From the IMG/VR virus record IMGVR_UViG_3300046318_000439, positions 1 to 64,000 of that record: DNA of 64,000 nt; one strand, 5' to 3'. This document shows positions 25,668 through 52,248 of this stretch, in pieces; the stretch's first letter is position 1, and the number at the start of each line of letters is the position of its first letter. The stretch comes from a virus. The position numbers and the translations under genes were made by a program. The notes under the pieces were generated by a model. It had not been told where the DNA came from and did not search any database. It saw only the letters and a list, made by a program, of their open reading frames with translations.

Positions 25668-25699
25668 TATTAGTAATTTTCGATATATTTAGGTATTTG

Positions 25700-34004: not shown

Positions 34005-34483
34005 ACTTCTCCATCCCACCCCAATCTAATATACCTACACCCTTTAACTTGTAATCCTTCTTTTATGTTCTTTACAAACGTCTGTCGGTCTGGTGGATCA
34101 AAAAGTGGTATGTCTAAAGCCTGCATTAACAATTGATCATCATCCAATAAATGACCTCTTCCGCAAATAGAATAACAACCATTAGATCCAGCATTGACAA
34201 ATATTACCGATCCGTGGTGCTCTGCCCAACCTTTAACATTCAATTTTATTTGCTCGTAGGCTTTGTATAAAACAAATCCAGCAACTCCATATACAATCAC
34301 TCGCTTGCCCTGAGACGCTAAACCAGCTGCAATATTAACCATTGTAGGTTCTTGTATTCCGCAGTTAATCACTCTTTCAGGATATCTACTTACAAACTTT
34401 TTAAATCCCCACATATCAGCATGTAGAAGATAAATGTCATTATTTCCCGCTCTAGCTAAGAATGTGTCCAAAGTACTTCTCAT
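33992..34483 (-). CDS. Transketolase-like, pyrimidine-binding (C-terminal) subunit
   Basis: 163 residues. It matches the middle (pyrimidine) domain of transketolase or DXS-type enzymes: DIYLLHADMWGFKKF, RVINCGIQEPTMVNIAAGLA with the cofactor-activating Glu in IQEPTM, and VYGVAGFVLYKAYEQIKLNV. It lacks the C-terminal domain of normal transketolases. The gene overlaps the N-subunit gene by four bases (ATGA), so the two together give one thiamine diphosphate enzyme. In sugar clusters such split enzymes move two-carbon units between sugars. Donor and acceptor unknown. Confidence 0.72.
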   Translation of the reverse strand: MRSTLDTFLARAGNNDIYLLHADMWGFKKFVSRYPERVINCGIQEPTMVNIAAGLASQGKRVIVYGVAGFVLYKAYEQIKLNVKGWAEHHGSVIFVNAGSNGCYSICGRGHLLDDDQLLMQALDIPLFDPPDRQTFVKNIKEGLQVKGCRYIRLGWDGEVWKK

Positions 34484-35175: not shown

Positions 35176-36193
35176 TTTGTTTTGGGGGCTTCACTTTATT
35201 AACATAATAATCGCCAGAGCAAATATCCCAGCGACATATTGAACCACTATTATGCAATATTACCATTTTGGTTACTGCTAGGGGATCAGTTACTAAATTA
35301 GTATAAACATCTTTTGGATTCTGCTCTTGCAGGAAGTTGGTCATTGGTCTAGAGCACACAAATACATTACCATCTCCATTTAGATACATGGTGCGCTTAC
35401 CCGCATCGCATTGCCATCCAGTAAAATCAACCCCTCGTTTAAATAGATCATTAGTTGAATATTCAACTCCATCCACTTTATACATTCGTTGGGTTTTGTT
35501 GTGTTTTTTGTAGAAAGCTAAATGACTGTCTCTAATATCATCACTATATTCGTAAGCGTAATAATCGTATATCATCTCACTATTTAATATATTTTTATAT
35601 TGTAAATACTTCTCTACTCTTTCATAGAACTCATTCAATAATTCTTTAGGTATATTTTCCAACATAATATCTAGATTGTATATTGGAATACCCTTAGCTT
35701 CAAGCATCGCAAAGTTATCTTCAAAGTCTTTCAGCTTATATCCGCCACCACGCGTTTTCAATTCCATGAAGTGGTAGGATATACCAATGCGGTCAAAAAG
35801 GTGTATGATCTTCTCTAACTTAGCTGGAGGTAAAGACAAATTGGTTTGCATTTCAATAAACGCTTCTATTCCAGTTTCTTTTGACTTTTGTTTAATGTAG
35901 GATAAAATGTCATACACTCTGTTATGCCGGGTTGCCTCTCCTCCATGGCAATAAAACACAACTCGTTTAAACTTAACCTTGTTAAAGAATATAAACAATT
36001 TGTCTATGGATGTGATAATATCTTCATATGCATAATGCTTGCCAGAATACCAATAGCAATACTCACACTTTAAGTCGCAAGCTTCCGTGATTCGTATTTG
36101 TACGTGATACTCAGAGGCTATGGCATCAGTTCTTCTCTCGCCCTCAATAATCTCATAGCTCTTTGTTGGCTTTAATCTGCGATAGACATTCAC
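35165..36193 (-). CDS. Radical SAM protein 1
   Basis: 342 residues. C39-x3-C43-x2-C46 (CDLKCEYC) binds the 4Fe-4S cluster that splits S-adenosylmethionine. GGEATRHN follows, a variant of the glycine-rich SAM site. A C-terminal cysteine set (QCDAGKRTMYLNGDGNVFVC ... ICRWDIC) resembles the auxiliary-cluster SPASM/twitch region. The start overlaps the stop of the U32-like gene (ATGA). It is the last of eight radical SAM proteins in the operon. Product and substrate unknown; SPASM-type members usually modify peptides or sugars. Confidence 0.82.
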   Translation of the reverse strand: MNVYRRLKPTKSYEIIEGERRTDAIASEYHVQIRITEACDLKCEYCYWYSGKHYAYEDIITSIDKLFIFFNKVKFKRVVFYCHGGEATRHNRVYDILSYIKQKSKETGIEAFIEMQTNLSLPPAKLEKIIHLFDRIGISYHFMELKTRGGGYKLKDFEDNFAMLEAKGIPIYNLDIMLENIPKELLNEFYERVEKYLQYKNILNSEMIYDYYAYEYSDDIRDSHLAFYKKHNKTQRMYKVDGVEYSTNDLFKRGVDFTGWQCDAGKRTMYLNGDGNVFVCSRPMTNFLQEQNPKDVYTNLVTDPLAVTKMVILHNSGSICRWDICSGDYYVNKVKPPKQIEE

Positions 36194-36996
36194 TGGGAGG
36201 CCTCTTTGCTTCTACTAACGTATGTCATTAGTTCTTTATAGAACTCTTCATCATTCATTTCTCGGCCTGTTATCTTGAAGCTTTTTACTCCAGCTTCCTT
36301 CAACTTTTTGAGATGAGGTGAATCGATATCCATACAGTTATATTTACTTTCTTTATTAAAGTCAAATCCTTTAATCCAACACTCCTCTACTTCCTTACTG
36401 TACGGACGACCTGCTGTGTTTTCATCTGCAATTGCCTTAAAGTGCTCATCAAACCGTGAACAATTCCAAATGCATGTATCATTCACCATCACTTCCCATT
36501 TAGTTTTATCTAGTTCTTCTGAACGCTTATCAAATATATGTTCATATCTAGGTACAATCCAGTCATAATCTTTTTCTAGTTGTTTATAGAAGTTAATGTC
36601 TTCGTCTTGTAGAGGAATATTTAACAGTCCCATTCCAGTGATACTGTATATTAAATCATATTTGGGATAGTTAGCTCTAATATATTTACGCAAATCTTCA
36701 TTAACTAAAATAATAGCGTTACCATCTTTATGAAACTTTTCCAGTAGATGATTGCCTACTGGATCATTAAGATCAATTCTATGATTAGTAAACGTGAGGG
36801 CTATACTAATACCTTTATTATAATAGTATTCAATCATACCATCATTATAGTAAATATCTCGGTTGATGCGCCCACCATTCCACTTGCATTTATTAATGCC
36901 ATCATACACAACTAGTTGATCGTTGCCGTTGTACTGAGCTAAAAACTTAATCAGAGGAATGGTTTTACTGAACGCGCCAGCTAAAAGATATCTCAT
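36190..36996 (-). CDS. U32-peptidase-like protein
   Basis: 268 residues. C175-x3-C179, C206 and C221 form a four-cysteine set. VNDTCIWNCSRFDEHF and HLKKLKEAGVKSFKITGREM match the cluster region and the end motif of U32 family proteins. Known U32 members (UbiU/V, RlhA, TrhP) are 4Fe-4S proteins that hydroxylate small molecules or RNA rather than cleave peptides. The N-terminal 60 residues are an alpha/beta start without signal peptide. It lies between two radical SAM genes with one and four bases of spacing, so it likely shares their substrate or pathway. Assignment rests on motif order, not on alignment. Confidence 0.6.
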   Translation of the reverse strand: MRYLLAGAFSKTIPLIKFLAQYNGNDQLVVYDGINKCKWNGGRINRDIYYNDGMIEYYYNKGISIALTFTNHRIDLNDPVGNHLLEKFHKDGNAIILVNEDLRKYIRANYPKYDLIYSITGMGLLNIPLQDEDINFYKQLEKDYDWIVPRYEHIFDKRSEELDKTKWEVMVNDTCIWNCSRFDEHFKAIADENTAGRPYSKEVEECWIKGFDFNKESKYNCMDIDSPHLKKLKEAGVKSFKITGREMNDEEFYKELMTYVSRSKEASQ

Positions 36997-36997
36997 A

Positions 36998-37753
36998 TTA
37001 CATTAAAAAACACTTGTCGTGATTGCATATGCCATCATGCTTTGTTCGATAGCAACAATTATACAATTCTAAATTGGGTCCATATAGAAAATACTTACCA
37101 TTGTACATGCATGGCTTACCTCGAGGACTGAAGTTGGGATCTCCCCACACTTCAGAACGGAACTTGCCTAAGCGCTCTACATTTTCAAACTGAATAAACT
37201 TAGTGTAATTGGAGTCCCGTCTTAAGGCATTAAATTCTTCTAAAGCCCCATTGGATATACCATCTCCAAAGTCTGATATTGGTGTTAGAAATAAACTCGG
37301 ATGATTATCTGTTAACTCTTTCACCTTTAGATAGTATTTAATAGCTTCTTTACCAGTGTACATTACATCAATCACTTTTATGTTTACTGGATTGTTATTA
37401 AACAAATCGTCAAGCTGATCCAATCTTATCTCTGTAGGATGTATGCTTATGTTGATCTGAAATGGATGTTTGATCCGCTTCATTACAGCAACACTCTTTT
37501 TGCTAAAGTTAGTTTGTATTACAAACGGAACGCTGAACTCATTAAAACATTCTATAATATGTTCAATGTGGGGATGAATGAAAGGCTCACCTCCAAATAT
37601 AAAAACTTCTACGCCAGGATACTTTTCCCCTAATCCTTTAATAAACTCGCGGAGCACATTCTTATCCATTTCAGTGCGCAATGACTGATCTAAGTTGGTG
37701 CAGTAAAAACACCCAAAATTACATTTAAGAGTTATTTCCCATTCAACTAGCAT
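36998..37753 (-). CDS. Radical SAM protein 2
   Basis: 251 residues, the most compact of the eight. C11-x3-C15-x2-C18 (CNFGCFYC) with FIFGGEPFIHPH as the GGE SAM-binding motif. A small C-terminal cysteine group (KPCMYNG ... NCCYR ... GICNHDKC) could hold an auxiliary cluster. Overlaps the next radical SAM gene by 11 bases. Function unknown; the short length is like activating or epimerising types, and a peptide or sugar substrate is possible. Confidence 0.82.
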   Translation of the reverse strand: MLVEWEITLKCNFGCFYCTNLDQSLRTEMDKNVLREFIKGLGEKYPGVEVFIFGGEPFIHPHIEHIIECFNEFSVPFVIQTNFSKKSVAVMKRIKHPFQINISIHPTEIRLDQLDDLFNNNPVNIKVIDVMYTGKEAIKYYLKVKELTDNHPSLFLTPISDFGDGISNGALEEFNALRRDSNYTKFIQFENVERLGKFRSEVWGDPNFSPRGKPCMYNGKYFLYGPNLELYNCCYRTKHDGICNHDKCFLM

Positions 37754-38678
37754 CTCGCACCTTTAGTTGTTTAAGTAACCCATCGCAATTACAGGCTCGA
37801 TGAGGACACGTCATAGGAATGGTTTTAGTTATTCTTTTGAAATAGTCTGGATCATCTAATAAATTAGTACGAGCATGCTCCATACAGAATTTAATTACTC
37901 CCCCATCCACATCTATCTCATAGTTGTTATTGTAACAACTCCATCCCTTAAAGTTAGTAAGCTTCTGATTATATACTTGATAGTCATTAAACACATCATC
38001 ATCATAACATAGATCTTTTTCAAAATCTTCTAAAAACTTAAAGTACTCCCAAAAATCTTGTCTGTAGTTAAATAGCGTGTGTACGTTCTTTCCGTAAATA
38101 AAATGAGGATGAACTTTGAGACCATCAATCTTGGCACATATTTCAAACATCTCTTTTATTAAAGGCCATAATTTTTTATCATGATGAAGCATGATGTTGA
38201 CCTTACATTGATACCCACGACTTATCATCAACTTGATATTAGATATAAATCTATCTCGATCTGTACAATCAGCTGGATGATAAGAAAACAAAAAAGCTAC
38301 TCTATCACTATACTGGGGATGATCGGTGAAATCTTTCTCTGCATTAGTAACAACATATACGCGGTTAAATTTATCAATCGTGGCAAGTTGGTTTAGGATG
38401 TAATAATAATGAGGGTTGAGGGTAGGTTCTCCACCAAGCAATCCTAGATTGAATGGTAAACTACTTCGTCTTAGGGATTCAATCACCCCATCAATAACTT
38501 CTTTCTTTCCCAGCTTACCCCACTTCTCACCATACTCATTTCTAGCATAGCAGTATGAGCACTTTAACTGACAAATAGTCAAAGTATCCCAATGCACATT
38601 GATGTGATCAGGATTCTGCTGATTGTGATATTGTTTAGAGTATTTCATTTTTAGGAAAGGAGATGTTATCTCCTCCAT
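37743..38678 (-). CDS. Radical SAM protein 3
   Basis: 311 residues. C36-x3-C40-x2-C43 (CQLKCSYC), then LGLLGGEPTLNPHYYYI as the GGEP motif, and a C-terminal MTCPHRACNCDG cysteine group. The same type of C-terminal end (CPxxxCxC/CxA) is found in the proteins at 41334 and 36998, so these three may be one subfamily. It overlaps the glycosyltransferase gene before it by 44 bases. Substrate unknown. Confidence 0.82.
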   Translation of the reverse strand: MEEITSPFLKMKYSKQYHNQQNPDHINVHWDTLTICQLKCSYCYARNEYGEKWGKLGKKEVIDGVIESLRRSSLPFNLGLLGGEPTLNPHYYYILNQLATIDKFNRVYVVTNAEKDFTDHPQYSDRVAFLFSYHPADCTDRDRFISNIKLMISRGYQCKVNIMLHHDKKLWPLIKEMFEICAKIDGLKVHPHFIYGKNVHTLFNYRQDFWEYFKFLEDFEKDLCYDDDVFNDYQVYNQKLTNFKGWSCYNNNYEIDVDGGVIKFCMEHARTNLLDDPDYFKRITKTIPMTCPHRACNCDGLLKQLKVRDAS

Positions 38679-39249
38679 CTATTGTTTGGTAATATAAAAC
38701 TTTACTTAATGTTTTGATGCTGGAAGCTTTAGATGCTGCATGCATAGTTAGTTTTATGTCGTTGTGAATGTCGCCATCATTAGGAAAGTTAAAATCACAA
38801 ATCACAGACCGTTTGTATATGTGCTGAGATAGTTGTAGATGTTCTATATTAACACTATCCATAAATTCTTTAGGAGTTAACCATGCATCTTTATATAGAG
38901 TCATAAATGTTAGCATGTTTGGGGTTTCATAACGCGGACAATAATTTCCAGCGATCAAATCAGCATCTAATACTTGATCAAAGAACCCTTCTACTAAGTA
39001 ATCATCATCTTCTAAGAAATATACATACTCCCCTTGAGCTGCTGATAGTAGCAGCTGATAAACTCCACAAAGAGTATCTGTCTTATTGTAGTAATAAGTT
39101 ACTTGAGGATGGTTTATTTCCAATATATCCATACTATCATTATTAACTATAACCTCCACATCAGACGTAATTTGAGCAAGCACACTCTCTAGGCAACGAG
39201 TGAACAGCTTAGGTCTATTGTGAGTAGGTATTAGTATGGATAGCTTCAT
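38635..39249 (-). CDS. Family 2 glycosyltransferase
   Basis: 204 residues. MKLSILIPTHNRPKLFTRCLESVLAQ is the classic GT2 opening, NNDSMD is in the nucleotide region and FLEDDDYLVEGF carries the DDD metal motif. No transmembrane segments, so it is a soluble transferase using a nucleotide sugar. Its ATG overlaps the stop of the radical SAM gene upstream (ATGA). Shorter than the usual ~250-300 residues; the C-terminal acceptor part is reduced. Acceptor unknown. Confidence 0.8.
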   Translation of the reverse strand: MKLSILIPTHNRPKLFTRCLESVLAQITSDVEVIVNNDSMDILEINHPQVTYYYNKTDTLCGVYQLLLSAAQGEYVYFLEDDDYLVEGFFDQVLDADLIAGNYCPRYETPNMLTFMTLYKDAWLTPKEFMDSVNIEHLQLSQHIYKRSVICDFNFPNDGDIHNDIKLTMHAASKASSIKTLSKVLYYQTIDGGDNISFPKNEIL

Positions 39250-40400
39250 CGCACATCAGTGTTTTTTCTATAGAACGTCACATACTTAATTTTATCTCCA
39301 GGTTCTGGAAATACTTCTGTATCCTTGGCTACTTCTTTCTCAATACCATCGCAAATATAAAAGTGCTTACACTTAAGACAGCTAATATCTTTTTGATAAA
39401 AACGCGCTCTATGAGTGGCACAAGCATCATACGCCAATCCAAGCTTTTCTTCTGGAGTATAAGGTTTACTAACATCGATGGTGTATGTGTACATTTCTCG
39501 ATTCCAATCCCGCACATCATAAATGTGTTGATAGGTTCCAGTGACGTACTTCTCATACCCCTTCATGTAACAGAATGGTACATATCGAACATTTACTGTG
39601 ATTCCATTTTGAAGCTTGTCAATGCATTTTTTAATACCATCTGTCATATCTTTATAAGTGGCATTTTTAAAATCGATTACATTGAAATCCCCCCAATAAT
39701 TTAACGTTAGAAAGTTAGCTTCTAATGGGTTGATAGAATTGATTAGATCTGCATATTCGTTTTCAAGTTGATGGTAATTCCTGTAATATACAGTGGCATT
39801 GGTACGAACAATCATACCAAGTTCTTTTGCGTTCTCTATTCCTTGCAATATTCTTTTGAATGAACCTTTACGTCCAGTTATTTCATCGTGAATCTCTTCG
39901 GTCGCTCCATGCAGACTAAACAATATTTCCTTTAGTCCTCTATCTTTTGACTCCTTCAAAAACTCCATATTAGCAAATTTACCACCATGCGATAAACAGC
40001 TAACACTACTAAATCTTTCATTACAATAGTCTAGTATTTGAAACCAATCTGGGCTGACGGAGCTTTCACCTCCACTAAGATCTACCTCTGTAATACCATA
40101 TGCTAGTAAATGATCTGCACGTTTCTTGACAATTTCAAAAGGAGTCTTAATATCCAACATGTCTTTATAATAGCAGAACTCACAATCATAATTGCAGAAT
40201 GTTCCAGTATCCAATCTAGCACGGTTACATGATGGAGTACTATAATCAATGTCAATACCAGCTACCCCTAACTCAGATAGAGCGTTGGGAGTGGCAGATC
40301 CAAGAGTCGCAACACGGTTTTCCGACATTCTATGCACGGCTTTATTTTCCAGCATGTTGTGGAGCTCGATAGGAATTATTTTACGAGGTTTATTACTCAT
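39246..40400 (-). CDS. Radical SAM protein 4 with C-terminal cysteine cluster
   Basis: 384 residues, the longest of the eight. A 60-residue N-terminal lead precedes C69-x3-C73-x2-C76 (CNYDCEFC). VDLSGGESSVSPDWF is the SAM site. The C-terminus has ACATHRARFYQKDISCLKCKHFYICDG, a SPASM-like auxiliary cluster. The N-terminal lead (CNRARLDTG at ~58-66) is unusual and may serve substrate recognition. Overlaps the GT-B-like gene by eight bases. Confidence 0.82.
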   Translation of the reverse strand: MSNKPRKIIPIELHNMLENKAVHRMSENRVATLGSATPNALSELGVAGIDIDYSTPSCNRARLDTGTFCNYDCEFCYYKDMLDIKTPFEIVKKRADHLLAYGITEVDLSGGESSVSPDWFQILDYCNERFSSVSCLSHGGKFANMEFLKESKDRGLKEILFSLHGATEEIHDEITGRKGSFKRILQGIENAKELGMIVRTNATVYYRNYHQLENEYADLINSINPLEANFLTLNYWGDFNVIDFKNATYKDMTDGIKKCIDKLQNGITVNVRYVPFCYMKGYEKYVTGTYQHIYDVRDWNREMYTYTIDVSKPYTPEEKLGLAYDACATHRARFYQKDISCLKCKHFYICDGIEKEVAKDTEVFPEPGDKIKYVTFYRKNTDVR

Positions 40401-41334
40401 TGTTTACCGCCATTTGTTCTTTAACGTAACCAACAAAAAAATCATTAGGAAGAAGTTCTAACCCATTTAAATTAGAATCAATATCTTCTCTTCTTCTATC
40501 AATTCCCCTGCATTCGTAATCAATTTCATACACAACATTTTTTCCATACACGGCACACTCAACGATAAACCTTGGACTGCAGTCTATCTGCCATCTTGTA
40601 GGGGTGTATATGTACGTATCAAATTTCTCAAAGATGTTTTTAATTGGAGCTCTAACAACTTCTACATTTGGTTGCTTAATACTTTCATACAAGTCTGGAT
40701 TGTTTGTGACAATAAGATATTTCTCACATATTTTTTTATCTATAATATGTTTGATGTTATCTGCAGCAGTGGCTCTCATGCTGGTGGTTAGATACAGTAA
40801 TGCAGTGTTTGTTAAGGATTGCTTTGGGGGTTGATATCTTCCCCATAGTATCTTTTTAACATAATCTACTACTTTAATGTTTAGCTCCTCAAACCGTTCT
40901 GGATATAGTTTAAAGTCTTGCATTAAATGTGTGCGCTTGATTGTTTTATTATTATGAAAATAACCAAAATTATTTTCTGAACACCTTAACAGAAATACAT
41001 TATCAGCATACATTACACAATCAAGGATGCGCCACGAACCATCTACTATACAAACATTATTGGCTAATATTATCTTGGGACGATAACACTCAAACGTGTT
41101 GTCTAATATATCCCTCAACTCTTTGTCGTTGAAATTATATTTGTCCTTTAAAGCTGTGGTGAATATTTCTTTGGTAATTCCATCTGATAAAAGTACAGCA
41201 CATTTAATATTGTTAATACTACAAATATAATAATAGTCTATCATCTCGTAAAGATGACCAGACACTCCATGAGTATAAAAGAATGATGTTGTGAATACTA
41301 AGTCATAATCCTTTAGATTGAGTATCTTCGACAT
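40393..41334 (-). CDS. Possible GT-B-type glycosyltransferase
   Basis: 313 residues. A GT-B-like layout can be seen: the N-terminal half has THGVSGHLYEMIDYYYI and the C-terminal half ALLYLTTSMRATAADNIKHI, KYLIVTNNPDLYESI and RFIVECAVYGKNVVYE. This is the arrangement of a two-Rossmann sugar transferase with a donor-site Glu. No clear family signature, so the call is tentative. Spaced by one shared base with the radical SAM gene downstream of its start (41334). Likely acts with its glycosyltransferase and radical SAM neighbours on a glycan. Confidence 0.45.
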   Translation of the reverse strand: MSKILNLKDYDLVFTTSFFYTHGVSGHLYEMIDYYYICSINNIKCAVLLSDGITKEIFTTALKDKYNFNDKELRDILDNTFECYRPKIILANNVCIVDGSWRILDCVMYADNVFLLRCSENNFGYFHNNKTIKRTHLMQDFKLYPERFEELNIKVVDYVKKILWGRYQPPKQSLTNTALLYLTTSMRATAADNIKHIIDKKICEKYLIVTNNPDLYESIKQPNVEVVRAPIKNIFEKFDTYIYTPTRWQIDCSPRFIVECAVYGKNVVYEIDYECRGIDRRREDIDSNLNGLELLPNDFFVGYVKEQMAVNNE

Positions 41335-42224
41335 TATTGCTTTTCCTTATAAAAGTTTAGCATAAAGTCAGCATGACAATACTCTCTGGGGCATGTTACG
41401 TTCACGCAGGCATTCTGTTTATTGATTCGAATCGGCATAGGAGCTCTCGTGCACGAGTTAACTATTGTACCATCAGATAAGATTTCATATAACAAAGCCT
41501 TACAACGATATCCCTTGAATTTGACCATGTCATCTTTCAAGGCATTGAATATTGGAACATGCACTTCCCGACCGTCGCTATATTGAAAGCGATATGTTTG
41601 TTTATCAGCTATGTTCTTGAGTCTAGGTTCAAATATCTTATAAAACTCATCATTATACGTTATTGTATTGCCTGGAGTGGATAATAATATATTGAGATCG
41701 TATCTTACGCCATGGCGGTCGAACTGATCGATCATGTCTAATATCTGAGGCCAGTCTTTTGGATTATCTGATAAATTTATATGACAGTAGAAGTTCTTGT
41801 CTTTAAAAGCTATACACTTATCAAGAAATGTCTGATCGTAATATTGTGCATGGTATGAGGCTGCTAGTCGTATCTTATCGCTGACAAATGTCTGCTGCAA
41901 GAAATGCATGGGCTTTGATAGATTTGTTTTAATTTCTATCAGTGTACACTTAGACATATCAGATAGTTGCTGAAGGATGTCTATAAAGTTTGGATGAAGA
42001 GTGGGTTCTCCGCCATACAGATCTACTTCAAAATCTGTATCAATCATAGAAAGTCTTTGAAGTACTAGCTTGTGTTTGGATGGCGATGTATCTTTAGAAT
42101 ATCGCTCTACCATTTTGTCTGCAGCGTTACAATAGGTGCACTTAAAGTTACACCAATCTACAAGGAACCATTCAAAGTGTATTGTGTTATAATTTTCAAT
42201 ACCAACATTATCTATAGCGGTCAT
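41334..42224 (-). CDS. Radical SAM protein 5
   Basis: 296 residues. C25-x3-C29-x2-C32 (CNFKCTYC), VDLYGGEPTLHPNFI as the GGEP motif, and a C-terminal SDGTIVNSCTRA with NVTCPREYCHADF, the same end as in the protein at 37743. Together these features suggest an enzyme with one auxiliary cluster. Starts six bases after the stop of the previous gene. Substrate unknown. Confidence 0.82.
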   Translation of the reverse strand: MTAIDNVGIENYNTIHFEWFLVDWCNFKCTYCNAADKMVERYSKDTSPSKHKLVLQRLSMIDTDFEVDLYGGEPTLHPNFIDILQQLSDMSKCTLIEIKTNLSKPMHFLQQTFVSDKIRLAASYHAQYYDQTFLDKCIAFKDKNFYCHINLSDNPKDWPQILDMIDQFDRHGVRYDLNILLSTPGNTITYNDEFYKIFEPRLKNIADKQTYRFQYSDGREVHVPIFNALKDDMVKFKGYRCKALLYEILSDGTIVNSCTRAPMPIRINKQNACVNVTCPREYCHADFMLNFYKEKQ

Positions 42225-42230
42225 TTTGCT

Positions 42231-43148: not shown

Positions 43149-43149
43149 A

Positions 43150-43551
43150 CTATCTCCTTAGATACTCTTCTACTATTGAGTTAACAGCATCCCTATCATT
43201 GTAATTGGTTAGCGATTGTAATTTACTAATAATGCCTGTATACTCTTTTTTTTGTTCTTCTAGACGCTTGATATTATCCTTAAGACTTAGATATATCTCT
43301 AAATCATTAATTAAGTATTCGTCCCCTGTCTCGATAATCTTAATGTAGCATTCTTCTTTGTTTTTATCGGTAATAATTATTCCTCTATCGAGAAACTTAT
43401 TATTAATTAGCATTATGGAAATAAAGTCTAGCAGTTTAAATGTTAATAAATCATCCCCAATTATCCCTCGCACTTTTATTTTACATGCGGCTGCCGCTTT
43501 ACCAGCATAGGTACTACTATCAATACATTCAACTTCTTTATACTTCTCCAT
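43150..43551 (-). CDS. Hypothetical protein with coiled coil
   Basis: 133 residues, charged. An N-terminal beta part has two cysteines (ECIDSSTYAGKAAAACKIKV). The middle is rich in Ile/Lys (DRGIIITDKNKEECYIKII) and residues ~85-115 (SLKDNIKRLEEQKKEYTGIISKLQ) form a coiled coil. Its start overlaps the end of the cysteine-repeat fibre gene by one base, so it may be a specific chaperone or partner of that fibre, as tail-fibre chaperones often follow fibre genes. No family recognised. Confidence 0.5.
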   Translation of the reverse strand: MEKYKEVECIDSSTYAGKAAAACKIKVRGIIGDDLLTFKLLDFISIMLINNKFLDRGIIITDKNKEECYIKIIETGDEYLINDLEIYLSLKDNIKRLEEQKKEYTGIISKLQSLTNYNDRDAVNSIVEEYLRR

Positions 43552-44309
43552 CAGTCACCTCTTAACATATCCACTGGTAATTTGTCATAATCTACTACGT
43601 AAAATCCATTGTCCGCTTTACTTACAGCATCAGCATATTCTGTGCCTAATAACTCTTGAGCCATAACTCCAACATATGTGGTATCTTTATCCCAAATGTA
43701 GCTAAAGGAATATAATTTTATTCCATGCTCAGAGCCAACATACTTAATATTTTCTTTTAATCGTTTGTCGCTATAGTTGCAATTACATGTGCAAGAGTAA
43801 TTACAATTACATGTACAATAATTACAATTGCATGTGCAATAATTACAGTTGCATGTACATACACCAGCAGCCCCTTGTATATCCGTTATGAGACTATTAA
43901 TGTTGGCAGCTGTGATTGTGCTTCCAATTGATACGCTTGTTGCACCAACATATCCCGCAACGGTTGGCCACAATATTAATTGATTGGCTCCATCGATGTA
44001 TCCATTATTAGGAGGAGATGCTTGAACGTTAAGAGCTGCTCGAAAGTTGTTTATATCGCTAGCAGTAATCGGGGAGCTAGGCGTATATGCCACAGTACCA
44101 ACACGACGTCGTGATCGCTCAGCATTGACAGCAGCAGCAAGTTGCGTATATTGGGATGTTGCAATTAGTTGTCCAGCACTTACATTTGTCAGTGCATGAG
44201 TAGTAGCATCTGATGCGTTTGTGCCATAAACAACAATATATGTTCCACTAAAGCCAGATGCGCTTGTGTTATTGAATGCTGGGACTGGGTACGGGGTGTA
44301 CGTCGCCAT
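43551..44309 (-). CDS. Tail fibre-like protein with CTCNCNY repeats and S74-type chaperone domain
   Basis: 252 residues. Residues 1-150 are Ala/Thr/Asn-rich beta-type sequence typical of fibres. Residues 151-179 hold four copies of the heptad C-T-C-N-C-N-Y, with 12 cysteines in 27 residues (151-177). From S180 the sequence is SDKRLKENI, the start of the peptidase S74 intramolecular chaperone domain that trimerises and often self-cleaves at that serine. If cleavage occurs as in the endosialidase family, the Cys tract would be the distal tip of the mature trimer. Twelve closely spaced Cys per chain could bind metal or iron-sulphur clusters, or be crosslinked. It sits amid eight radical SAM genes. 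Confidence 0.8.
   Translation of the reverse strand: MATYTPYPVPAFNNTSASGFSGTYIVVYGTNASDATTHALTNVSAGQLIATSQYTQLAAAVNAERSRRRVGTVAYTPSSPITASDINNFRAALNVQASPPNNGYIDGANQLILWPTVAGYVGATSVSIGSTITAANINSLITDIQGAAGVCTCNCNYCTCNCNYCTCNCNYSCTCNCNYSDKRLKENIKYVGSEHGIKLYSFSYIWDKDTTYVGVMAQELLGTEYADAVSKADNGFYVVDYDKLPVDMLRGD
43773..43859 (-). repeat. 21-base repeat coding for CTCNCNY
   Basis: Four tandem 21-base units (the last offset by an extra Ser codon) coding for Cys-Thr-Cys-Asn-Cys-Asn-Tyr. The units have synonymous differences (TGT/TGC, AAT/AAC), so the protein repeat is held while the DNA has diverged. Confidence 0.85.
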
Positions 44310-44323
44310 TTAATTATTCCTTG

Positions 44324-44701
44324 TTAAATTTTTCCTGCTAAGAAGTTTAAATCTTCTTTTGCTTTTGTTTCCGCAATAAACTTTTCATAATCATCTAATT
44401 CTGATGTGATAAAGTCTAATGTTTGTTGATCAGGTTCTTTCATCATATCTACAGCAGAACCGCTTTCCACAACATAACGTACTAGGTCTGCTAAAGAAAA
44501 CCCTAATGCAGCAGAAACCATTTCTATCTGCTCACTAGCTTCAATGGTTTCCCGGCCACCTTTCAAAGCAACCTGCTCCAACGTACGTAATCCTATACCG
44601 AAGCTTTCCATCAATACTGCTCCGACTCCGGAATCTTCTTCTGCAATGTCTTTAATTGCACCAAAAATAATGTCTAATTTATCTTGTATACTCATTTTCA
44701 T
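44324..44701 (-). CDS. Hypothetical helical protein
   Basis: 125 residues, acidic, mostly alpha-helical, with no cysteine. MSIQDKLDIIFGAIKDIAEEDSGVGAVLMESFGIGLRTLEQVAL, then a Gly-Asp-like linker and a terminal helix (ITSELDDYEKFIAETKAKEDLNFL). A second ATG at 44695 may be the true start, as AAAAGG lies only three bases before the first ATG. Overlaps a radical SAM gene by 23 bases. Small helical proteins in radical SAM operons can be leader-binding partners, but there is no RRE-like winged-helix signature here. Confidence 0.5.
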   Translation of the reverse strand: MKMSIQDKLDIIFGAIKDIAEEDSGVGAVLMESFGIGLRTLEQVALKGGRETIEASEQIEMVSAALGFSLADLVRYVVESGSAVDMMKEPDQQTLDFITSELDDYEKFIAETKAKEDLNFLAGKI

Positions 44702-45560
44702 TTTCCTTTTCTTTAAAATCGTGGAATTTTAAAGCACTTTCATCATACTTGTATGTTGTAACGTTACCTTCGTCTGTAAAATACGTTTTGGTAGCATGCA
44801 CAACACCGCACCCACTACACATATCGCAGAAAAACTCACAAACTGGTATACTATTATCCCTATTTATCCAATCAGTTCTGAAGCGATTTTTACCGGCTAA
44901 TAACAGCTGTTGATCTTCATCTGAAAGGGTATCCCACGCTATTGACGTAATTACACGCAACGGCTTGAATGTTTTAATAATTCTGTTTATGTCATCATAA
45001 AAAAACTTAATATTATTGTTATGGATAGTATAACGTACTCTGAAACCCATCCTATTTTTCATTAATTTCTTAAATACTGTAATCATGGCTGATGTTGAAT
45101 CAGACCCATCATGGAATATTCTATTACCGTTTCCTACACCATCAAAACTAACATCAATGGACATGAACCCCCTCTTATAGAAAAAGTTCTCCTTTACTTC
45201 TTGCGTAAACTTATCGCTTAGAAATTTAATGCCATTAGTCTCTAAATTAAAATGCACATTCTTTTTCTTGCTGTATGCATACTCCATTAGATAACATACA
45301 TTTTCCCACTGCAATGTTGGTTCCCCTCCAAACAACACTATTAAAGTTTGTTTGTCTGGATCCTCTCTTTCGATAATACCATCAACATATTGTTCAATAT
45401 CTTGCTTTGTTAGAATTTGGGGAGGACGATTCGCCAAATCTTGATAACAATGCTTACATGCCAAATTGCAAACGTTAGTAAAATAAATGACATTAACAGC
45501 TGTATTTTCTTCTACAGGTTTGTCGTCTTTTCTTATAAAGTTTGCAATGATCTCGTTCAT
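44679..45560 (-). CDS. Radical SAM protein 6
   Basis: 293 residues. C31-x3-C35-x2-C38 (CNLACKHC) and LIVLFGGEPTLQWENV as the GGEP motif. The C-terminus has CEFFCDMCSGCG, four cysteines close together for an auxiliary cluster, then KTYFTDEGNVTTYKY. The CxxCxxC order at the end differs from classical SPASM, where the cysteines are more spread. Overlaps the preceding small gene by four bases. Likely peptide- or small-molecule-modifying; substrate unknown. Confidence 0.82.
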   Translation of the reverse strand: MNEIIANFIRKDDKPVEENTAVNVIYFTNVCNLACKHCYQDLANRPPQILTKQDIEQYVDGIIEREDPDKQTLIVLFGGEPTLQWENVCYLMEYAYSKKKNVHFNLETNGIKFLSDKFTQEVKENFFYKRGFMSIDVSFDGVGNGNRIFHDGSDSTSAMITVFKKLMKNRMGFRVRYTIHNNNIKFFYDDINRIIKTFKPLRVITSIAWDTLSDEDQQLLLAGKNRFRTDWINRDNSIPVCEFFCDMCSGCGVVHATKTYFTDEGNVTTYKYDESALKFHDFKEKENENEYTR

Positions 45561-45862
45561 TGTATAATCATTTGATGAGAATTCTTATATCGATCATCTT
45601 TAGGACGCGATTGAGCCTCTTTGATAATGTGAGTCATATTATCTAAAAACTTAGGATAGTCAATTTGATATTCGAATAGATGGCCGCGTTCCTGATAATT
45701 AACATACTTACTATCTACACGGGCTTTACCTTTTTTAGCTTCTTCAATTTGCACTGCTAGCTCATCTACAGTCAAAGCATTTCGTGAATCATGCTCTACT
45801 TGACTCATTTCTACTCTCACTGGTATGTCTAGTATACTTTTAAAACGTCTAGGTTCACTCAT
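45557..45862 (-). CDS. Hypothetical protein
   Basis: 101 residues, charged, without cysteine. MSEPRRFKSILDIPVRVEMSQ, then a central helix (ALTVDELAVQIEEAKKGKARVDS) and a second one (YPKFLDNMTHIIKEAQSRP). No family recognised. It lies between two radical SAM genes, overlapping the first by one base and the second by four. Its size would allow a small adaptor or substrate-delivery protein. Confidence 0.5.
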   Translation of the reverse strand: MSEPRRFKSILDIPVRVEMSQVEHDSRNALTVDELAVQIEEAKKGKARVDSKYVNYQERGHLFEYQIDYPKFLDNMTHIIKEAQSRPKDDRYKNSHQMIIQ

Positions 45863-46986
45863 TAGTTTCTACACTCCACGCCTTCATTTTCGACCCCAAC
45901 GTTCTCAATATAATGCAAGATTAAATCTTGGAATACTGGAACGTCTCTGCATTCATCTACCACTCTCATACCCTGCTCGTATGTAATCATAAACAATTCA
46001 CATATACTATCAAGAGGTTTGTTGTCGTTCATAATCTGGGAGTATGTACAGCCAGCATTACAAACTTGTCTTAGCTTACATTCCACACACTTGTCAAAAC
46101 TGTGAGGGCTGAACTTCTCTTGAAAATATTTAAAGTTGTATTGCTCATCAATCTTCATAATCTTTTTACTTGCAAAGCGAGCACAAGGATAAAATTCTCC
46201 ACTGCTCATAAGCACGCCGCCATTGGTACCAGCAAAACATCCTGTTTTACGTTTACCTTTTACTAGACCATACAACGTATCTAAAATAGCAAGTCTCAGG
46301 AATCCAACTGAACACGGAATGCCTGCTTTTAACTTTTCAATATATCGATCAGTTAATCTAATTAATTCTGTACGATATTCTCTGATATCATCAGCCGTCC
46401 ATACATCGTCTCTCACTAAGCTGAAATCTGGATGTTCAATCCCCCAGTCCAACAAAAACTCAAAGTTTTCTGTCATGTCCCTTACATTACCAGGCCAGAT
46501 CATAACTTTGCAACCGTTAGTCAAGTTGACTATAATATCTTTTTTGTATTTGTACAGTTCAAGAATGCCATCAAACAACTTACCAGTTTCTGGGTTTGTG
46601 TTTTCTAGCAGTGGTAGGAGAGGGCGCGTTTCGTTTGAACTCATTCCATCAAAAGACCAAGATACGCCCACACCATTGTCTGTTAGGTACTTGGCTTTCT
46701 CTGCATCAATCATTGTCAGGTTAGTAATAATGTTGATACCTTTACACTTAGGATCTGACTTGAGGTAAGGAACAGCGTGCTGGATTAACTCCCAGTTCAA
46801 TAAAGGTTCCCCGCCAAAGAAGCTAACGTGATATGTGCTATCTCCAGAATTTTTCATCAACACAGGTAAGTCTTGCATGCCTTTGTCAAATACCTCTTTA
46901 GTCATCCAAGTAGGCTTATTAGCAACATAGCAATACGGACATCCTAGATTGCATTTCTCTGTTACTGAAATTTCTAAAGTGAACAT
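45862..46986 (-). CDS. Radical SAM/SPASM protein 7
   Basis: 374 residues. C12-x3-C16-x2-C19 (CNLGCPYC), HVSFFGGEPLLNW as the SAM motif, and a full SPASM-type tail: PCARFAS, CVECKLRQVCNAGC, SICELF. This is the pattern of peptide-maturing radical SAM enzymes (anSME and relatives that process RiPP precursors or sulfatases). It is therefore the strongest case in the island for a protein or peptide substrate. Overlaps the next radical SAM gene by 13 bases. Confidence 0.87.
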   Translation of the reverse strand: MFTLEISVTEKCNLGCPYCYVANKPTWMTKEVFDKGMQDLPVLMKNSGDSTYHVSFFGGEPLLNWELIQHAVPYLKSDPKCKGINIITNLTMIDAEKAKYLTDNGVGVSWSFDGMSSNETRPLLPLLENTNPETGKLFDGILELYKYKKDIIVNLTNGCKVMIWPGNVRDMTENFEFLLDWGIEHPDFSLVRDDVWTADDIREYRTELIRLTDRYIEKLKAGIPCSVGFLRLAILDTLYGLVKGKRKTGCFAGTNGGVLMSSGEFYPCARFASKKIMKIDEQYNFKYFQEKFSPHSFDKCVECKLRQVCNAGCTYSQIMNDNKPLDSICELFMITYEQGMRVVDECRDVPVFQDLILHYIENVGVENEGVECRN

Positions 46987-48080
46987 TGTTTAGCCTCAAC
47001 TTTAATAGGGATAATCTTAGAGTTCAGAGCTTTACGTAAAGCATAATGAATAACTTCGTTCATTTTAAACACTTTACATACCTGCCAATTGGATGTATGA
47101 TCACTCCACTTTTCAATATACGTTTCTTTTTCGCTCTTTTCAAACGTAGCAGCATTACACTTCATACAGAATTGAGAATCGCACGATTGACAATCAAGCG
47201 GTTGATTCTTTAAGGCATCCTTAAACATCTCTGTTTTCTCTTTGATCAGAGCATCGATATCTGGTACATTGCGAATGTTGCCTAATACGTGTGCGTGGGA
47301 TTCCTTATACATGCATCCATGACAAGGACTAATGTCACCGTTCAAATCCACGCTGACATAATTGATACCAGCAGAGCACAAGGCTCGCGATTGTTGGAAC
47401 CATCCAAACTTTTCTGGTGGAAGTTTATTTGTGTAGATATACTTTGCTATCTTTGTCAACCCAACTTTAAGTTCTTCCATGTGAACAGCAAATTCTTCCT
47501 GTGACAGAGTAGAATACAAGTCAGGAGTAGGGAAGTAGTTATCCGCCATACTAATGACGTCAAGAAATGCTTCGTAAATTAGATGAAAATGCTTAGCTGT
47601 TAATACTGATTTCATATTAACGTTCAGACCATTTTGTTTAGCAGCAAGATAGTTAGATTTAACTAACGCTGAAGATGGGTTACCTACCTTATCAATTCTC
47701 GTAATGTCGTTTACAGGTTTACCATCATATGATATTTGAAGGCGCAATCTGCCTTGACCTAATTCTTTATGCAACTGAACTAATTCAGCCATGTACTTCT
47801 TTAGATACACTCCATTTGTGTAAAAGAAGAAAGAGAAGTTAGGATCGTGTTTGTACTTATCAATCACCCCTTTGCAAAATTCCCAGTTTACAAATGGTTC
47901 TCCACCCCAAAAATACACGTCCTTTTTAGGATCGGATATTTTGGACATGAATTCGTCAATGTTGTCGAGAGTAACTGATGTGTTTTCTTCAAATTCAGTG
48001 GATAGACCGCACTCATACCCCTCTGAACAGTATGTACATGCTAGATTGCACGTGCTTGTTACGTTAATGTCAATAACCAT
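46974..48080 (-). CDS. Radical SAM/SPASM protein 8
   Basis: 368 residues. C11-x3-C15-x2-C18 (CNLACTYC), VYFWGGEPFVNWEF as the GGEP motif, and a SPASM-like tail: SPCHGCMYKESH, DCQSCDSQFCMKC and VCKVF. It is similar in layout to the next gene (45862), including position of the GGEP motif, so the pair may be paralogues acting in sequence or as a complex. The start lies 32 bases after the dehydrogenase-like gene's stop, one of the larger gaps in this operon. Confidence 0.87.
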   Translation of the reverse strand: MVIDINVTSTCNLACTYCSEGYECGLSTEFEENTSVTLDNIDEFMSKISDPKKDVYFWGGEPFVNWEFCKGVIDKYKHDPNFSFFFYTNGVYLKKYMAELVQLHKELGQGRLRLQISYDGKPVNDITRIDKVGNPSSALVKSNYLAAKQNGLNVNMKSVLTAKHFHLIYEAFLDVISMADNYFPTPDLYSTLSQEEFAVHMEELKVGLTKIAKYIYTNKLPPEKFGWFQQSRALCSAGINYVSVDLNGDISPCHGCMYKESHAHVLGNIRNVPDIDALIKEKTEMFKDALKNQPLDCQSCDSQFCMKCNAATFEKSEKETYIEKWSDHTSNWQVCKVFKMNEVIHYALRKALNSKIIPIKVEAKQCSL

Positions 48081-48867: not shown

Positions 48868-50310
48868 TTATAAAATGTAACACTCCACTAATTTTTCTTC
48901 AAGTTGAGAGTTTGTATGTAAGGCAATAGCAATAGGATTCACTATACCCGAAATTGCGCATCCATCAAGACCAGCTACAAGAGTCTGTCCTTTTTTGATA
49001 GCCCCAACTACTCGAACAGGCACTCGCCCTTTTAGCGCAATTGGTTGACCTGCTGCATCTGCATTCATTAGGTAAGCTGGATTTGTGGATACCACGCCAA
49101 TCGCTGGTTGACTAAAATGACTTGATGCAGTGCATTCGGCTTCAGTTGTATCATCTGCTATCACCACAACAGTGCCAGGTATATATTCTTTGTCTGTAGT
49201 GTATTTTTCTGCTATGTCGGCATATCGTGCACTGGTAGCAGTTGCTGTTATAACGCCAGCGCTGAAATTGCCACTTGCATCACGAGCAACAATTGTAGAT
49301 CCCGTCGCTGCGTCTGTCGCACTACGATTGGCACCAGCATACAGTAACGTATTGGCACCCGTTGCCGTACCACTCAATGAGGCCGTTATAACACCAGCAC
49401 TGAAATTGCCACTTGCGTCTCGTGACACTACTTTATTTGCTGTGGCAGCAGACGTTGCATCAACGTTAAGAGTGATATCTGATGTTAGTGTTCCACCACC
49501 AACCATAAAGCTTCCGTTTGACACTGAACGAGCACATTGATTGGCCGTACCGTTTAATGTGCCAGTAACTCCGCCTGTGGCTGTAATTAAGCCAGTAACA
49601 CTGACTGTGTTAGAGAAAGTAGCCGCGCCTACCACCCCTAGTGTAGTAGAAACGTTCGCAGAACCAGTTACGTTTATACCAGCGCCAGGACTAAGAAGTC
49701 CTCCAACAGAAAGTGTGTTAGAGAAAGTGCCAGCGAGAACGCCAGTAAATGTTCCACCTATTCTTAAAGCACTGGCTACGTTTGCAGAACCAGTTACAGT
49801 TAAAGCAGCGTCTGGAGTAGTGTTATTAATACCTACACGGTTATTAACGCCATCAACAAACAAAACTCCACTATCAAAAATTGAGTTACCAGTTGTGACT
49901 GTAAGATTAGTTGTGGTGACGTTGGATGCAGCTGTAATGTTTGTTGCAACAAAATCGCCGATTACGTTAGCAGCACCAGTTACAACAAAAGCTACCGTTT
50001 GACCTAATGCAGTATTAACCCCGACGCGATTGTTAGTAGCATCAATAGAAAGTGTACTTGTATCGAATGTTGCATTTGCAGCACCAAATGTTGAGATGCC
50101 TGCTACTTGAAGGGTTGTCCCAACGTTGGCAAATCCACCAATTGAGGTATTACCGGTTAGTGTGCTAGTGCCAGTAACTGCTAATGTGTTTGAGAAAGCC
50201 GCTGCATTGATGACAGATAGCTGTTGAGTTATTGATACGTTTCCAGTAACCGATGCGTTTTCTGAAACGATGAGTCCTTTACGGACTCGGAAGTCTTGAA
50301 TTGCTGCCAT
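48868..50310 (-). CDS. Tail fibre protein with Asn/Thr-rich repeats and conserved phage fibre C-terminus
   Basis: 480 residues. Residues ~15-260 are repeats such as TGSANVSTTLGVVGAATFSNTVSVTG, interspersed with NNRVGINNTTPDAALTV, a beta-helical fibre repeat like that in the gene at 29272. The end (YADIAEKYTTDKEYIPGTVVVI ... IGVVSTNPAYLMN ... KGRVPVRVVGAIKKGQTLV) is the widespread conserved C-terminal domain of marine phage fibres, related to the Peptidase_G2-type self-processing module. Likely a tail fibre. The GAVIS- and Ala-rich linker at 265-330 has two near copies of VVSRDASGNFSAGVI. Confidence 0.78.
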   Translation of the reverse strand: MAAIQDFRVRKGLIVSENASVTGNVSITQQLSVINAAAFSNTLAVTGTSTLTGNTSIGGFANVGTTLQVAGISTFGAANATFDTSTLSIDATNNRVGVNTALGQTVAFVVTGAANVIGDFVATNITAASNVTTTNLTVTTGNSIFDSGVLFVDGVNNRVGINNTTPDAALTVTGSANVASALRIGGTFTGVLAGTFSNTLSVGGLLSPGAGINVTGSANVSTTLGVVGAATFSNTVSVTGLITATGGVTGTLNGTANQCARSVSNGSFMVGGGTLTSDITLNVDATSAATANKVVSRDASGNFSAGVITASLSGTATGANTLLYAGANRSATDAATGSTIVARDASGNFSAGVITATATSARYADIAEKYTTDKEYIPGTVVVIADDTTEAECTASSHFSQPAIGVVSTNPAYLMNADAAGQPIALKGRVPVRVVGAIKKGQTLVAGLDGCAISGIVNPIAIALHTNSQLEEKLVECYIL

Positions 50311-50344
50311 TAGTTTCCCTTTCCACTAACGTTAAATTGTATAA

Positions 50345-51079
50345 TTATGATAACATTAATCTAGCTACCTTAAATGTAGCGTTTGTTGTTGGTGTTGCAA
50401 GAAGACGTACATTACCAGCACTGATATCAGCATCGAATGTACAGAATGTTGCTACTGTGTTGACGACTGCATACTCAGTTAAGAATACAGTAGTACCATC
50501 ATGCGTAAGAAGTAATTCTTCGGACATATATCCAGTCGTTGCATTTTTTACTTCGATTAGATATTTTGTTGTTCTGTATGTAGTAGAGAATGTATCTACA
50601 ATAGTTTGACCTGCTACAGCGTTTGCATATACTGTATTGGTAGATTGAACCGATAATGTAGGTCCAACAGCAGCTCTAACACTTACTGTCAATGTGTTAC
50701 TAATAGTTGTGTTGTTAGATATTGTTACTGTATTAGAAACGTTGAGGTTTGTTGCATACACGAACCATCTATTATCTGTGGTACCTAATGATATATTATT
50801 TGTGCTCGGAACTGTTGATCCTCTAAAGGTCACAGTATTTGCAAAATCGGCTGAGTTGGCAAACAATTCCCAACGGTTGTTAGTATTACCAAGAGCGCGT
50901 CCAGACACATCAGGTACGAAGTTGCCGGTAACGTTGGCGGTAAATACAACACTTCCTCCAACCGTCAAATCTCCAACAACGTTGGCAAAGCCTCTAACGA
51001 GGATATTCTGCTCTATCTCTGCGTCACCAACAACCAGTAACCCGTGTTCTGCTTTGAAGTTTGTATTTCCAGTTGCCAT
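50345..51079 (-). CDS. Fibre protein with short repeats
   Basis: 244 residues. N-terminus FKAEHGLLVVGDAEIEQNILVRGFANVVGDLTVGG and repeats NNRWELFANSADFANTV / NNRWFVYATNLNVSNTV, then a C-terminal ~100-residue beta domain (IVDTFSTTYRTTKYLIEVKN...GYMSEELLLTHDG). The second part, with an LIEVKNATTGYMSEELLL-like strand, is found at the ends of several phage fibre proteins. Three bases from the next gene. Likely a short fibre or fibre connector. Confidence 0.65.
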   Translation of the reverse strand: MATGNTNFKAEHGLLVVGDAEIEQNILVRGFANVVGDLTVGGSVVFTANVTGNFVPDVSGRALGNTNNRWELFANSADFANTVTFRGSTVPSTNNISLGTTDNRWFVYATNLNVSNTVTISNNTTISNTLTVSVRAAVGPTLSVQSTNTVYANAVAGQTIVDTFSTTYRTTKYLIEVKNATTGYMSEELLLTHDGTTVFLTEYAVVNTVATFCTFDADISAGNVRLLATPTTNATFKVARLMLS

Positions 51080-51082
51080 ATA

Positions 51083-52033
51083 TTATGCTAGTAATGAAAC
51101 ATTTAAGGTAAGTTGAGAGTTCGGTGCAGTTTGATTAAATCTCAACAGCGCATGAGTGGTATTAGCGGATATACTATACACTCCTAAATTGGATGAAGGA
51201 GGAGAGTGGAGTGTTGCATATTCTGTTAAGTATGCATTTGTACCATCAGTAACTATTAAGAATTTAGACACACGAGATGTAGATCCATTTTTAATTACAG
51301 ATGTGAAGTCTCCGCCCTTATACATCATCATTTCCCAACTATAAACATTGAGAGGAGAACCTGTCGACGCCCCTAGATCAGTGTTTGATACGTGGGTTTG
51401 AATGCCATCCATACCGTCCGGACCGTGACGCCATTCTCCCATCATTGTTATGTTGTCTGTTACTTCTACTGATCCTGTAAACAATGTATTGGATGTGATG
51501 TTAACGCCATTGGATGTAATATTGACAGTATTGCTGGAAACTGATAATGTATTCCCAGTAATATTAATAGTATTAGATCCAAGCGTTGTATTTGCCCCTG
51601 TAAAATTAGCGTTGCTACCAACGACGATTCTATTGCCAGTTAAAGTAACGTTAGCATTGAATGTAGAATTTGAGCTAACGTTTAATGTGGGACCAGTCAC
51701 ATTCATAGCAATCGCGTTAATGGAGGTCACTGCATTAGTTATGTTTAGATTGGAACTGAAGGCAGCATTAGCACCAGTAAATATTACATTAGAAGAAACA
51801 GTTAAGTTTGCTGCAGCGTTGACTGTACCGCCTCTTATACTACTACCAACTGCAATTGTATTAGCACCAAAAATACCAATCAAGTTAGTATTGCCGGTTG
51901 TATTAGCTCCATCGTTAGATGAGTTGGCTGTAATTATCTCTGAACCAAGAGTAGAAATTATTTGATTAGTTTTTGTAATAAGTGAGGAAAACGTATCCGT
52001 CGCTATTACAATTGAGGTTATATTCTTTGCCAT
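51083..52033 (-). CDS. Fibre protein with Asn/Thr-rich repeats
   Basis: 316 residues. Residues ~40-200 are repeats like VSSNVIFTGANAAFSSNLNITNAV and GSNANFTGANTTLGSNTI. The C-terminal domain (GSPLNVYSWEMMMYKGGDFTSVIKNGSTSRVSKFLIVTDGTNAYLTEYA, cut into parts here) resembles the end of the neighbouring gene (LLTHDGTTVFLTEYA). These two fibres share a head type, so they may be alternative or co-assembled fibres. Confidence 0.68.
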   Translation of the reverse strand: MAKNITSIVIATDTFSSLITKTNQIISTLGSEIITANSSNDGANTTGNTNLIGIFGANTIAVGSSIRGGTVNAAANLTVSSNVIFTGANAAFSSNLNITNAVTSINAIAMNVTGPTLNVSSNSTFNANVTLTGNRIVVGSNANFTGANTTLGSNTINITGNTLSVSSNTVNITSNGVNITSNTLFTGSVEVTDNITMMGEWRHGPDGMDGIQTHVSNTDLGASTGSPLNVYSWEMMMYKGGDFTSVIKNGSTSRVSKFLIVTDGTNAYLTEYATLHSPPSSNLGVYSISANTTHALLRFNQTAPNSQLTLNVSLLA

Positions 52034-52248
52034 TATGCCTTACCGTTCGTTAATATTTCTAGCATACGTTTTATATCAGTCATGTCCTGCTTCAAACCGT
52101 TCACTTCCTCCACTACTTGGGTAAGAGCTAATTCTTTTGCTCTAGCATCCTTGTATGCTTGAAGTCCTGCACTATCAATATTTAGGACAGCTCGAGCACG
52201 GCCAGGAGTATCGTCCTTCATAAACCCAGGAAATTCTGTCTTTATCAT
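52033..52248 (-). CDS. Small coiled-coil structural protein
   Basis: 71 residues. A conserved lead (TPGRARAVLNIDSAGLQAYKDARAKEL) precedes a C-terminal coiled coil (VVEEVNGLKQDMTDIKRMLEIL). Its ends overlap both neighbours by one to four bases. This small protein type is recurrent beside baseplate genes of marine T4-like phages; role unknown. Confidence 0.6.
   Translation of the reverse strand: MIKTEFPGFMKDDTPGRARAVLNIDSAGLQAYKDARAKELALTQVVEEVNGLKQDMTDIKRMLEILTNGKA

Follow-up and report, generated by a model that had tools for sequence, protein, structure and literature searches.

Gene organization of the cysteine-tract locus

The DNA stretch analysed here (the window) covers the first 64,000 nucleotides of a 202-kb virus record (IMGVR_UViG_3300046318_000439), and its terminase and baseplate genes place the phage among the T4-like myoviruses. 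On the minus strand, an open reading frame at 43551..44309 encodes a protein of 252 residues that combines N-terminal helical repeats of the type I.A..IN.L..ERxRRg with a cysteine-heptad tract and a C-terminal S74 domain. The tract (43773..43859, minus strand; residues 151-179, CTCNCNYCTCNCNYCTCNCNYSCTCNCNY) is made up of three CTCNCNY heptads, one Ser and a final CTCNCNY, the single Ser shifting the fourth unit so that the spacing is 7, 7 and 8. It contains 12 Cys, which would amount to 36 if the protein were a trimer, as claimed in an earlier reading of this DNA from its letters (the sequence-only reading). At the DNA level, the four units differ at six positions, all of them third-codon and synonymous, while just 9 of the 63 possible single changes per heptad unit are silent, which indicates strong purifying selection on the heptad protein sequence. 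An alignment of 18 proteins shows near-invariant tract columns against a mean column identity of 30%. A PDB sequence search with the tract/S74 piece gave no real match.

The tract is followed by a short Peptidase_S74/intramolecular chaperone domain (43551..43772, minus strand; residues 180-252), which matches PF13884 with an E value of 4e-5 and 24.2 bits, above the 22-bit cut-off, confirming the earlier description of four CTCNCNY heptads ahead of an S74 domain with SDKRLK. The Ser/Lys dyad described for S74 autocleavage (PMC3742443) is present as S-x4-K at the predicted cleavage site (S180 D K R L K185), and autocleavage is predicted between Tyr179 and Ser180, after which the C-terminus would be formed by the tract. 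The SDxRLK Ser/Lys motif and the C-terminal PF13884 match liken the domain to endosialidase-type S74 fibre chaperones, but it is very short, and most tract relatives have 12 residues or none. Among 51 distinct tract proteins, about 8, including that of the window, keep the full S74, and in 23 a short SDxxxK remnant forms the terminus, as a rule the 12 residues SDxRLKxxIxY[M/L/I/F]. The tract genes of L022, L040/L107 and L088 stop exactly at CNY, the expected S74 cut position. Since several tract genes thus stop at CTCNCNY, the tract probably does become the C-terminus, as the sequence-only reading had supposed; its general reliance on S74 removal did not hold, and judging from these sequences S74 is incidental or optional to the tract and not a general partner. 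The constant 12-residue tail, which lies at 43737-43772 in the window and there continues into the full S74, closes about 20 tract proteins (L008, L011, L012, L013 and others), and may be an S74 relic or a recognition tag.

Immediately upstream of the tract gene, and like it on the minus strand, lie the genes for three radical SAM enzymes, B (44679..45560), A (45862..46986) and C (46974..48080). They are accompanied by two small proteins without any Pfam match: one of 101 residues between A and B (45557..45862, minus strand), which has homologs in relatives and is possibly an accessory or substrate-binding factor, and a helical one of 125 residues between B and the tract gene (44324..44701, minus strand), with helical proteins of similar size recurring in divergent cassettes. 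Neither of them yielded an RRE or PqqD-like domain in the Pfam search, which may overlook distant RREs. Fibre-like and tail-type proteins (48868, 50345, 51083 and 52245; 48868..54296, minus strand) flank the cassette and so place it in a tail/fibre region; the 252-residue tract protein is itself fibre-like and would be a virion component.

Enzyme A, the proposed main maturase, is PapB/SCIFF-like. Its invariant cysteines comprise a CX3CX2C motif (C12, C16, C19) and a complete seven-Cys SPASM set (C250, C268, C300, C303, C309, C313, C329), both retained in all 14 homologs compared, the most distant of which is 34% identical. B has four invariant C-terminal Cys (CX3CX2CX2C), and C has seven in a SPASM-like arrangement. 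All 14 A proteins match the PapB model, which tops the NCBIfam list with the best E value, followed by nif11, SCIFF, QhpD and other peptide maturases. The A protein of the window lies below the cut-off of every peptide-maturase NCBIfam model that it matches; its shortfall against PapB itself (NF047865; 138.8 bits, cut-off 340) we count against a maturase role. Among solved structures, PDB entry 5wgg, which we take to be CteB, the SCIFF maturase, is the nearest to each of A, B and C; the N-terminal extension present in CteB is missing from A.

The radical SAM island noted by the sequence-only reading is real: eight such genes lie within 35165-48080, and PF04055 matches at nine places across the whole 202-kb record. 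Five of the eight form a second group (41334, 39246, which is AlbA-like, 37743, 36998 and 35165; 35165..42224, minus strand) interleaved with glycosyltransferase-type genes. This group is conserved in only part of the tract phages and probably lies outside the core cassette. Beside it, at 31878-35175, are a transketolase half, a PIG-L deacetylase and epimerases, and on the opposite strand (25697-29047, plus) is a protein of 1116 residues with glycosyltransferase domains (GT1, GT2 and a third) and an FkbM methyltransferase.

Co-inheritance of the heptad tract and the radical SAM trio

Scanned at the protein and DNA levels, IMG/VR contains the heptad CTC[N/D]CNY in about 45 records with 3-28 heptads each. 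These counts refer to records and not to independent events, as many tract loci are near-duplicates; IMG/VR records are often fragments. All named Campylobacter Firehammerviruses (group II phages; CP21, CP220, CPt10, IBB_35 and others) have the tract, and the known carriers are all large tailed phages, several of them T4-like. Exact two-heptad DNA patterns matched 37-49 stretches among 2.9 million viral contigs and three contigs among bacterial and archaeal genomes totalling 257 Gb, one of which, from Clostridium rectalis, is also a virus record in IMG/VR; the remaining two are of ~3 kb and come from MAGs. The tract is no chance occurrence and is essentially phage-specific. Across 324 heptads, in which Cys 1, 3 and 5 were fixed by the search itself, T predominates at position 2, position 4 is occupied by N (148), D (142) or Q (23), and position 6 by N. 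The seventh residue is Y or H, as in the swap CICDCNH, with F in the later variants CPCNCNF and CTCNCNF. The tract proteins differ among loci in their N-terminal architecture, and a helix-like segment, ITAxxINxLxxxINxAgxxC, is conserved N-terminal to the tract, in Campylobacter phages too, and may serve as a recognition element. One tract protein (L009, 9890-10678) is also Cys-rich in its N-terminal part, with 33 Cys overall.

Radical SAM genes are present in 41 of 43 tract records, each of the 41 having at least three, and the two records that lack them are fragments of 16 kb and 22 kb. Six further tract records comprise three with radical SAM genes, two in which the tract sits at the contig end, and L078, which has 16 heptads on a 43.8-kb contig without any radical SAM gene; L078 is a genuine exception and is counted against a maturase role. 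Tract phages lacking all radical SAM genes, which the sequence-only reading had named as evidence that would speak against it, were thus found only as short or end-truncated contigs and this one 43.8-kb fragment. At most loci, A, B and C adjoin the tract gene and share its strand, arranged as A-small-B-C-tract or C-A-small-B-small-tract, and the cassette stays next to the tract gene where A is only 34-42% identical to the window copy. Some loci, however, seem to lack B (G010) or C (G025, where only a weak C is present), which is also counted against a maturase role. In CP21 (L016, 13150-14320), C is apparently split by a frameshift, through sequencing error or decay, and is intact in CP220 and CPt10.

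In the reciprocal test, we started from A alone in 49 IMG/VR phage loci and sought a heptad protein within 10 kb, which was found in 41 of them. The other eight comprise two Campylobacter phages in which the tract is unlinked, three loci that end at contig ends, two with a variant tract right behind the cassette (CTCNVD in L158, CHS[N/D] in L160) and one, L122, with a shortened tract gene. As the near-identical relative L002 keeps an intact tract, we read L122 as a repeat collapse in assembly. Strong homologs of A (at least 236 bits) are restricted to Firehammervirus among 50,697 phage records, which are the same phages that have the tract. In CP220 the genes are dispersed, with A at 16.4 kb, B at 83.9 kb, C at 164.8 kb and the tract at 160.9 kb, yet all are kept.

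Both the tract and A/B/C are absent from Fletchervirus, the sister genus of Firehammervirus. In the Fletchervirus NCTC12673 as well as in four other T4-like phages, S-PM2, Melnitz-1, Cr30 and P-RSM6, we found no radical SAM gene and no match to B or C, and none of them was among the A matches. Thirteen terminase relatives of the window phage have neither a tract nor an A ortholog (best match 54 bits, versus 399-549), and 78 other S74 loci (1.0 Mb) yielded no tract and no radical SAM gene. The sequence-only reading had asked whether radical SAM genes always accompany S74 fibres with such repeats; they accompany nearly all tract carriers and were found at none of these 78 S74 loci. We rejected two simpler yardsticks. 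The radical SAM count alone is uninformative because tract-less relatives can carry 1-4 such genes; as these relatives have no A/B/C, only A/B/C orthologs discriminate. Cys-dense open reading frames occur by a loose criterion in 11 of the 78 control loci, several on the other strand. Across the tract loci, A/B/C are constant and the other radical SAM genes vary from locus to locus. Among phages that have diverged widely, the repeat and one particular radical SAM trio are inherited together, also where their genes lie far apart.

A proposed maturation pathway and its alternatives

Our preferred reading, to which we assign a probability of roughly two in three, is that the Cys tract belongs to a virion fibre protein and receives thioether-type cross-links from A, B and C. 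A phage radical SAM system for protein maturation would have the tract protein as its substrate and A, B and C as its enzymes; because the trio accompanies the repeat in nearly every case, the repeat is probably cross-linked during particle building. After translation, the cassette would bind the Cys tract of the fibre-type structural protein, and A, together with B and C, would make covalent cross-links inside each heptad. The likeliest bond would be a thioether joining the sulphur of a Cys to a carbon in a nearby N/D, T or aromatic residue, with the N/D at position 4 as the leading candidate partner. The cross-links would fix the repeat as a rigid rod of beta type. S74 would then be cut off between CNY and SDKRLK in the window protein and about seven others, the remaining tract genes ending at CNY or in the 12-residue remnant, and the hardened rod would form the end of a tail fibre or similar appendage. 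Of these elements, the sequences show the gene, its tract, their conservation, the co-inheritance and the enzyme family; the substrate relation, the cross-linking, the residue pairing, the autocleavage and the virion location are inferred.

The chemistry of the CTC[N/D] core is plausible since PapB accepts Cys-Xn-Asp with n=0-6 (PMC9413430), and thuricin CD biosynthesis offers a case of two radical SAM enzymes able to work in a single complex (PMC12093266). Three further observations count against the proposal: the heptad C-x-C-[N/D]-C-N-Y contains no CX3D/E, either within a unit or across units spaced by 7; position 4 is Asn rather than Asp in about half of the heptads; and CPT_0180, the CP220 tract protein, is absent from the 11 virion bands identified on a 2010 gel. 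The sequence-only reading had favoured a radical SAM cross-link over a bare metal tip, a preference that gains strong independent support from the co-inheritance of tract and trio and from the thioether-forming peptide maturases that are the closest characterised relatives of A; the canonical PapB Cys-X3-Asp motif is absent.

AF2 modelled the S74 part of the window protein with confidence and the N-terminal helices partially, leaving the tract unfolded (pLDDT <50), and a Foldseek search of the PDB with this model found nothing significant. A single-sequence model of a 28-heptad array showed period-7 strands at modest confidence (Y-C-T-C as strand, [N/D]-C-N as turn), and its Foldseek matches were mostly beta-solenoids, every one with E>0.2, so that the modelled resemblance of the long array to a beta-solenoid is only a hint. 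With the short tract unfolded and the long array stranded at modest confidence, the cross-linked beta rod is no more than an inference.

The AF2 result would also suit a fibre, perhaps trimeric, in which CxCxC rungs hold Fe, Zn or an Fe-S centre, the radical SAM enzymes acting elsewhere or in Fe-S supply, since a short tract modelled without its ligands might well appear unfolded while a 28-heptad model forms period-7 strands. The i, i+2, i+4 cysteines with conserved N/D and Tyr/His are suited to ligation, Y to H swaps do occur, and iron-loaded fibre tips provide a precedent, T4 gp37 forming a His-X-His iron needle. The gp37 tip likewise is a fibre-tip repeat of alternating ligand-type residues, but the phage tract has Cys in place of His, a heptad period and a radical SAM linkage, and the HxH metal-binding motif is absent from the window tract. 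We nevertheless consider such a tip unlikely, because it leaves unexplained why the tract is inherited, even when unlinked, with three radical SAM enzymes bearing extra Fe-S-type Cys motifs and not with Fe-S assembly genes, and why CHSN and CTCNVD repeats follow the same enzymes. The enzymes might instead modify only some of the cysteines (for example by epimerisation, methylthiolation or a single thioether) and thereby pre-organise the rest for metal or disulfides, an arrangement that would match three enzymes to three Cys per heptad and draw on the varied peptide chemistry among the enzyme relatives; being less simple, it seems to us improbable.

Two further explanations would deny the enzymes any role on the tract. 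If the cysteines merely paired into a plain disulfide rod after lysis, the radical SAM linkage would have other reasons, for example glycan or nucleotide-sugar chemistry; the island does contain sugar genes and further radical SAM genes, and a metabolic role has been ascribed to the radical SAM genes of CP220 (Timms et al. 2010, PMC2853527). The specific and reciprocal linkage of A/B/C, set against a remaining radical SAM complement that varies among loci, and the lack of A/B/C in tract-less relatives that carry 1-4 other radical SAM genes make this very improbable. Hitch-hiking of tract and enzymes as mere neighbours in one phage lineage would fit carriers that are all large tailed phages, several T4-like, with close contigs over-represented. 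It can hardly be reconciled with A identities down to 34-42%, differing N-terminal architectures, the retention of dispersed genes in CP220, and the joint absence of tract and enzymes in Fletchervirus and the close terminase relatives.

Known radical SAM systems and other cysteine repeats

The nearest parallels to the proposed thioether maturation of the tract are the ranthipeptide maturases of the PapB type (NF047865) and CteB (5wgg), which provide the best NCBIfam model and the best PDB chain for A and are, like A, SPASM radical SAM enzymes; they act on Cys-rich repeats with thioether chemistry. The phage system differs from them in having no recognisable RRE or CX3D, in its enzyme trio and in its proposed fibre-type substrate of about 140-540 residues. 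The CXXX-repeat, Cys-every-fifth and His-Xaa-Ser systems (TIGR04115, NF038107, TIGR03978/03977) also place a short-period repeat beside one or more radical SAM/SPASM enzymes, but they are bacterial and non-virion, have other repeats, and A scores far under their cut-offs. Thuricin CD, a sactipeptide made by TrnC and TrnD, is comparable in its mode of action, with several radical SAM enzymes serving one substrate; its products are small antibiotic peptides with alpha-carbon thioethers. QhpD, from quinohemoprotein amine dehydrogenase maturation, cross-links Cys to Asp/Glu within a protein subunit and not a small peptide. All 14 A proteins match its model (TIGR03906), although A scores 87 versus a cut-off of 453 and the QhpD target is a bacterial enzyme subunit.

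Radical SAM cross-linking is known from small peptides and a few enzyme subunits, and in the literature searched we found no description of it for a virus structural protein. Searches with the motif itself across 5.39 million papers, and with radical SAM combined with phage, tail fibre, RiPP or Cys-rich, returned nothing linking the tract to radical SAM enzymes; radical SAM cassettes of pelagimyophages are mentioned without a Cys link. CP220 and CPt10 have the same tract and A/B/C orthologs as the window phage. A metabolic role was proposed for their 11-12 radical SAM genes, and the only intragenic repeat reported, of 21 bp in CPT_0180 ('repetitive region x'), was not connected with them (Timms et al. 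2010, PMC2853527). If true, the proposed cross-linking would amount to virion maturation of a new kind, would account for at least three of the 11-12 puzzling radical SAM genes of the Campylobacter group II phages, and would offer an enzyme trio acting on repeats that could be useful for rigid cross-linked protein rods. CP220 and CP21 are among the culturable phages with tract and trio, which makes the proposal directly testable.

It is tempting to speculate, with somewhat less than even confidence, that phages more generally use dedicated radical SAM sets to stitch Cys-repeat tail or fibre segments into cross-linked rods, CTC[N/D]CNY being one of several such repeats. Beside more distant radical SAM relatives we found CHSN/CHSD, CTCNVD, CDCDR, CxxC and (CT)n repeats. 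On a 314.8-kb phage contig (L160, 14555-15079), the A-B-C cassette is followed by a protein in which CHSN/CHSD/CHGN repeats replace CTCNCNY. Phage proteins of 850-1470 residues ending in CxxC/CxxCxxC repeats occur in L177 (4040-7000), L184, L186, L183, L178 and L179, together with a second small CxxC protein and adjacent distant A-type radical SAM genes (24-26% identity). CDCDRCAC, CxxxC-type and (CT)n repeats lie near radical SAM genes in L166 (9507), L167 (9549, 13884 and 15591) and L187 (7356), L167 encoding two long Cys-rich proteins. At the locus of the 28-heptad protein (L103, 17373-18054), small acyl-carrier-protein-like and hotdog-like genes adjoin A, and in CP220 (L153, 17842-18210) a protein of 123 residues, almost all CxxC repeats, lies <8 kb from A.
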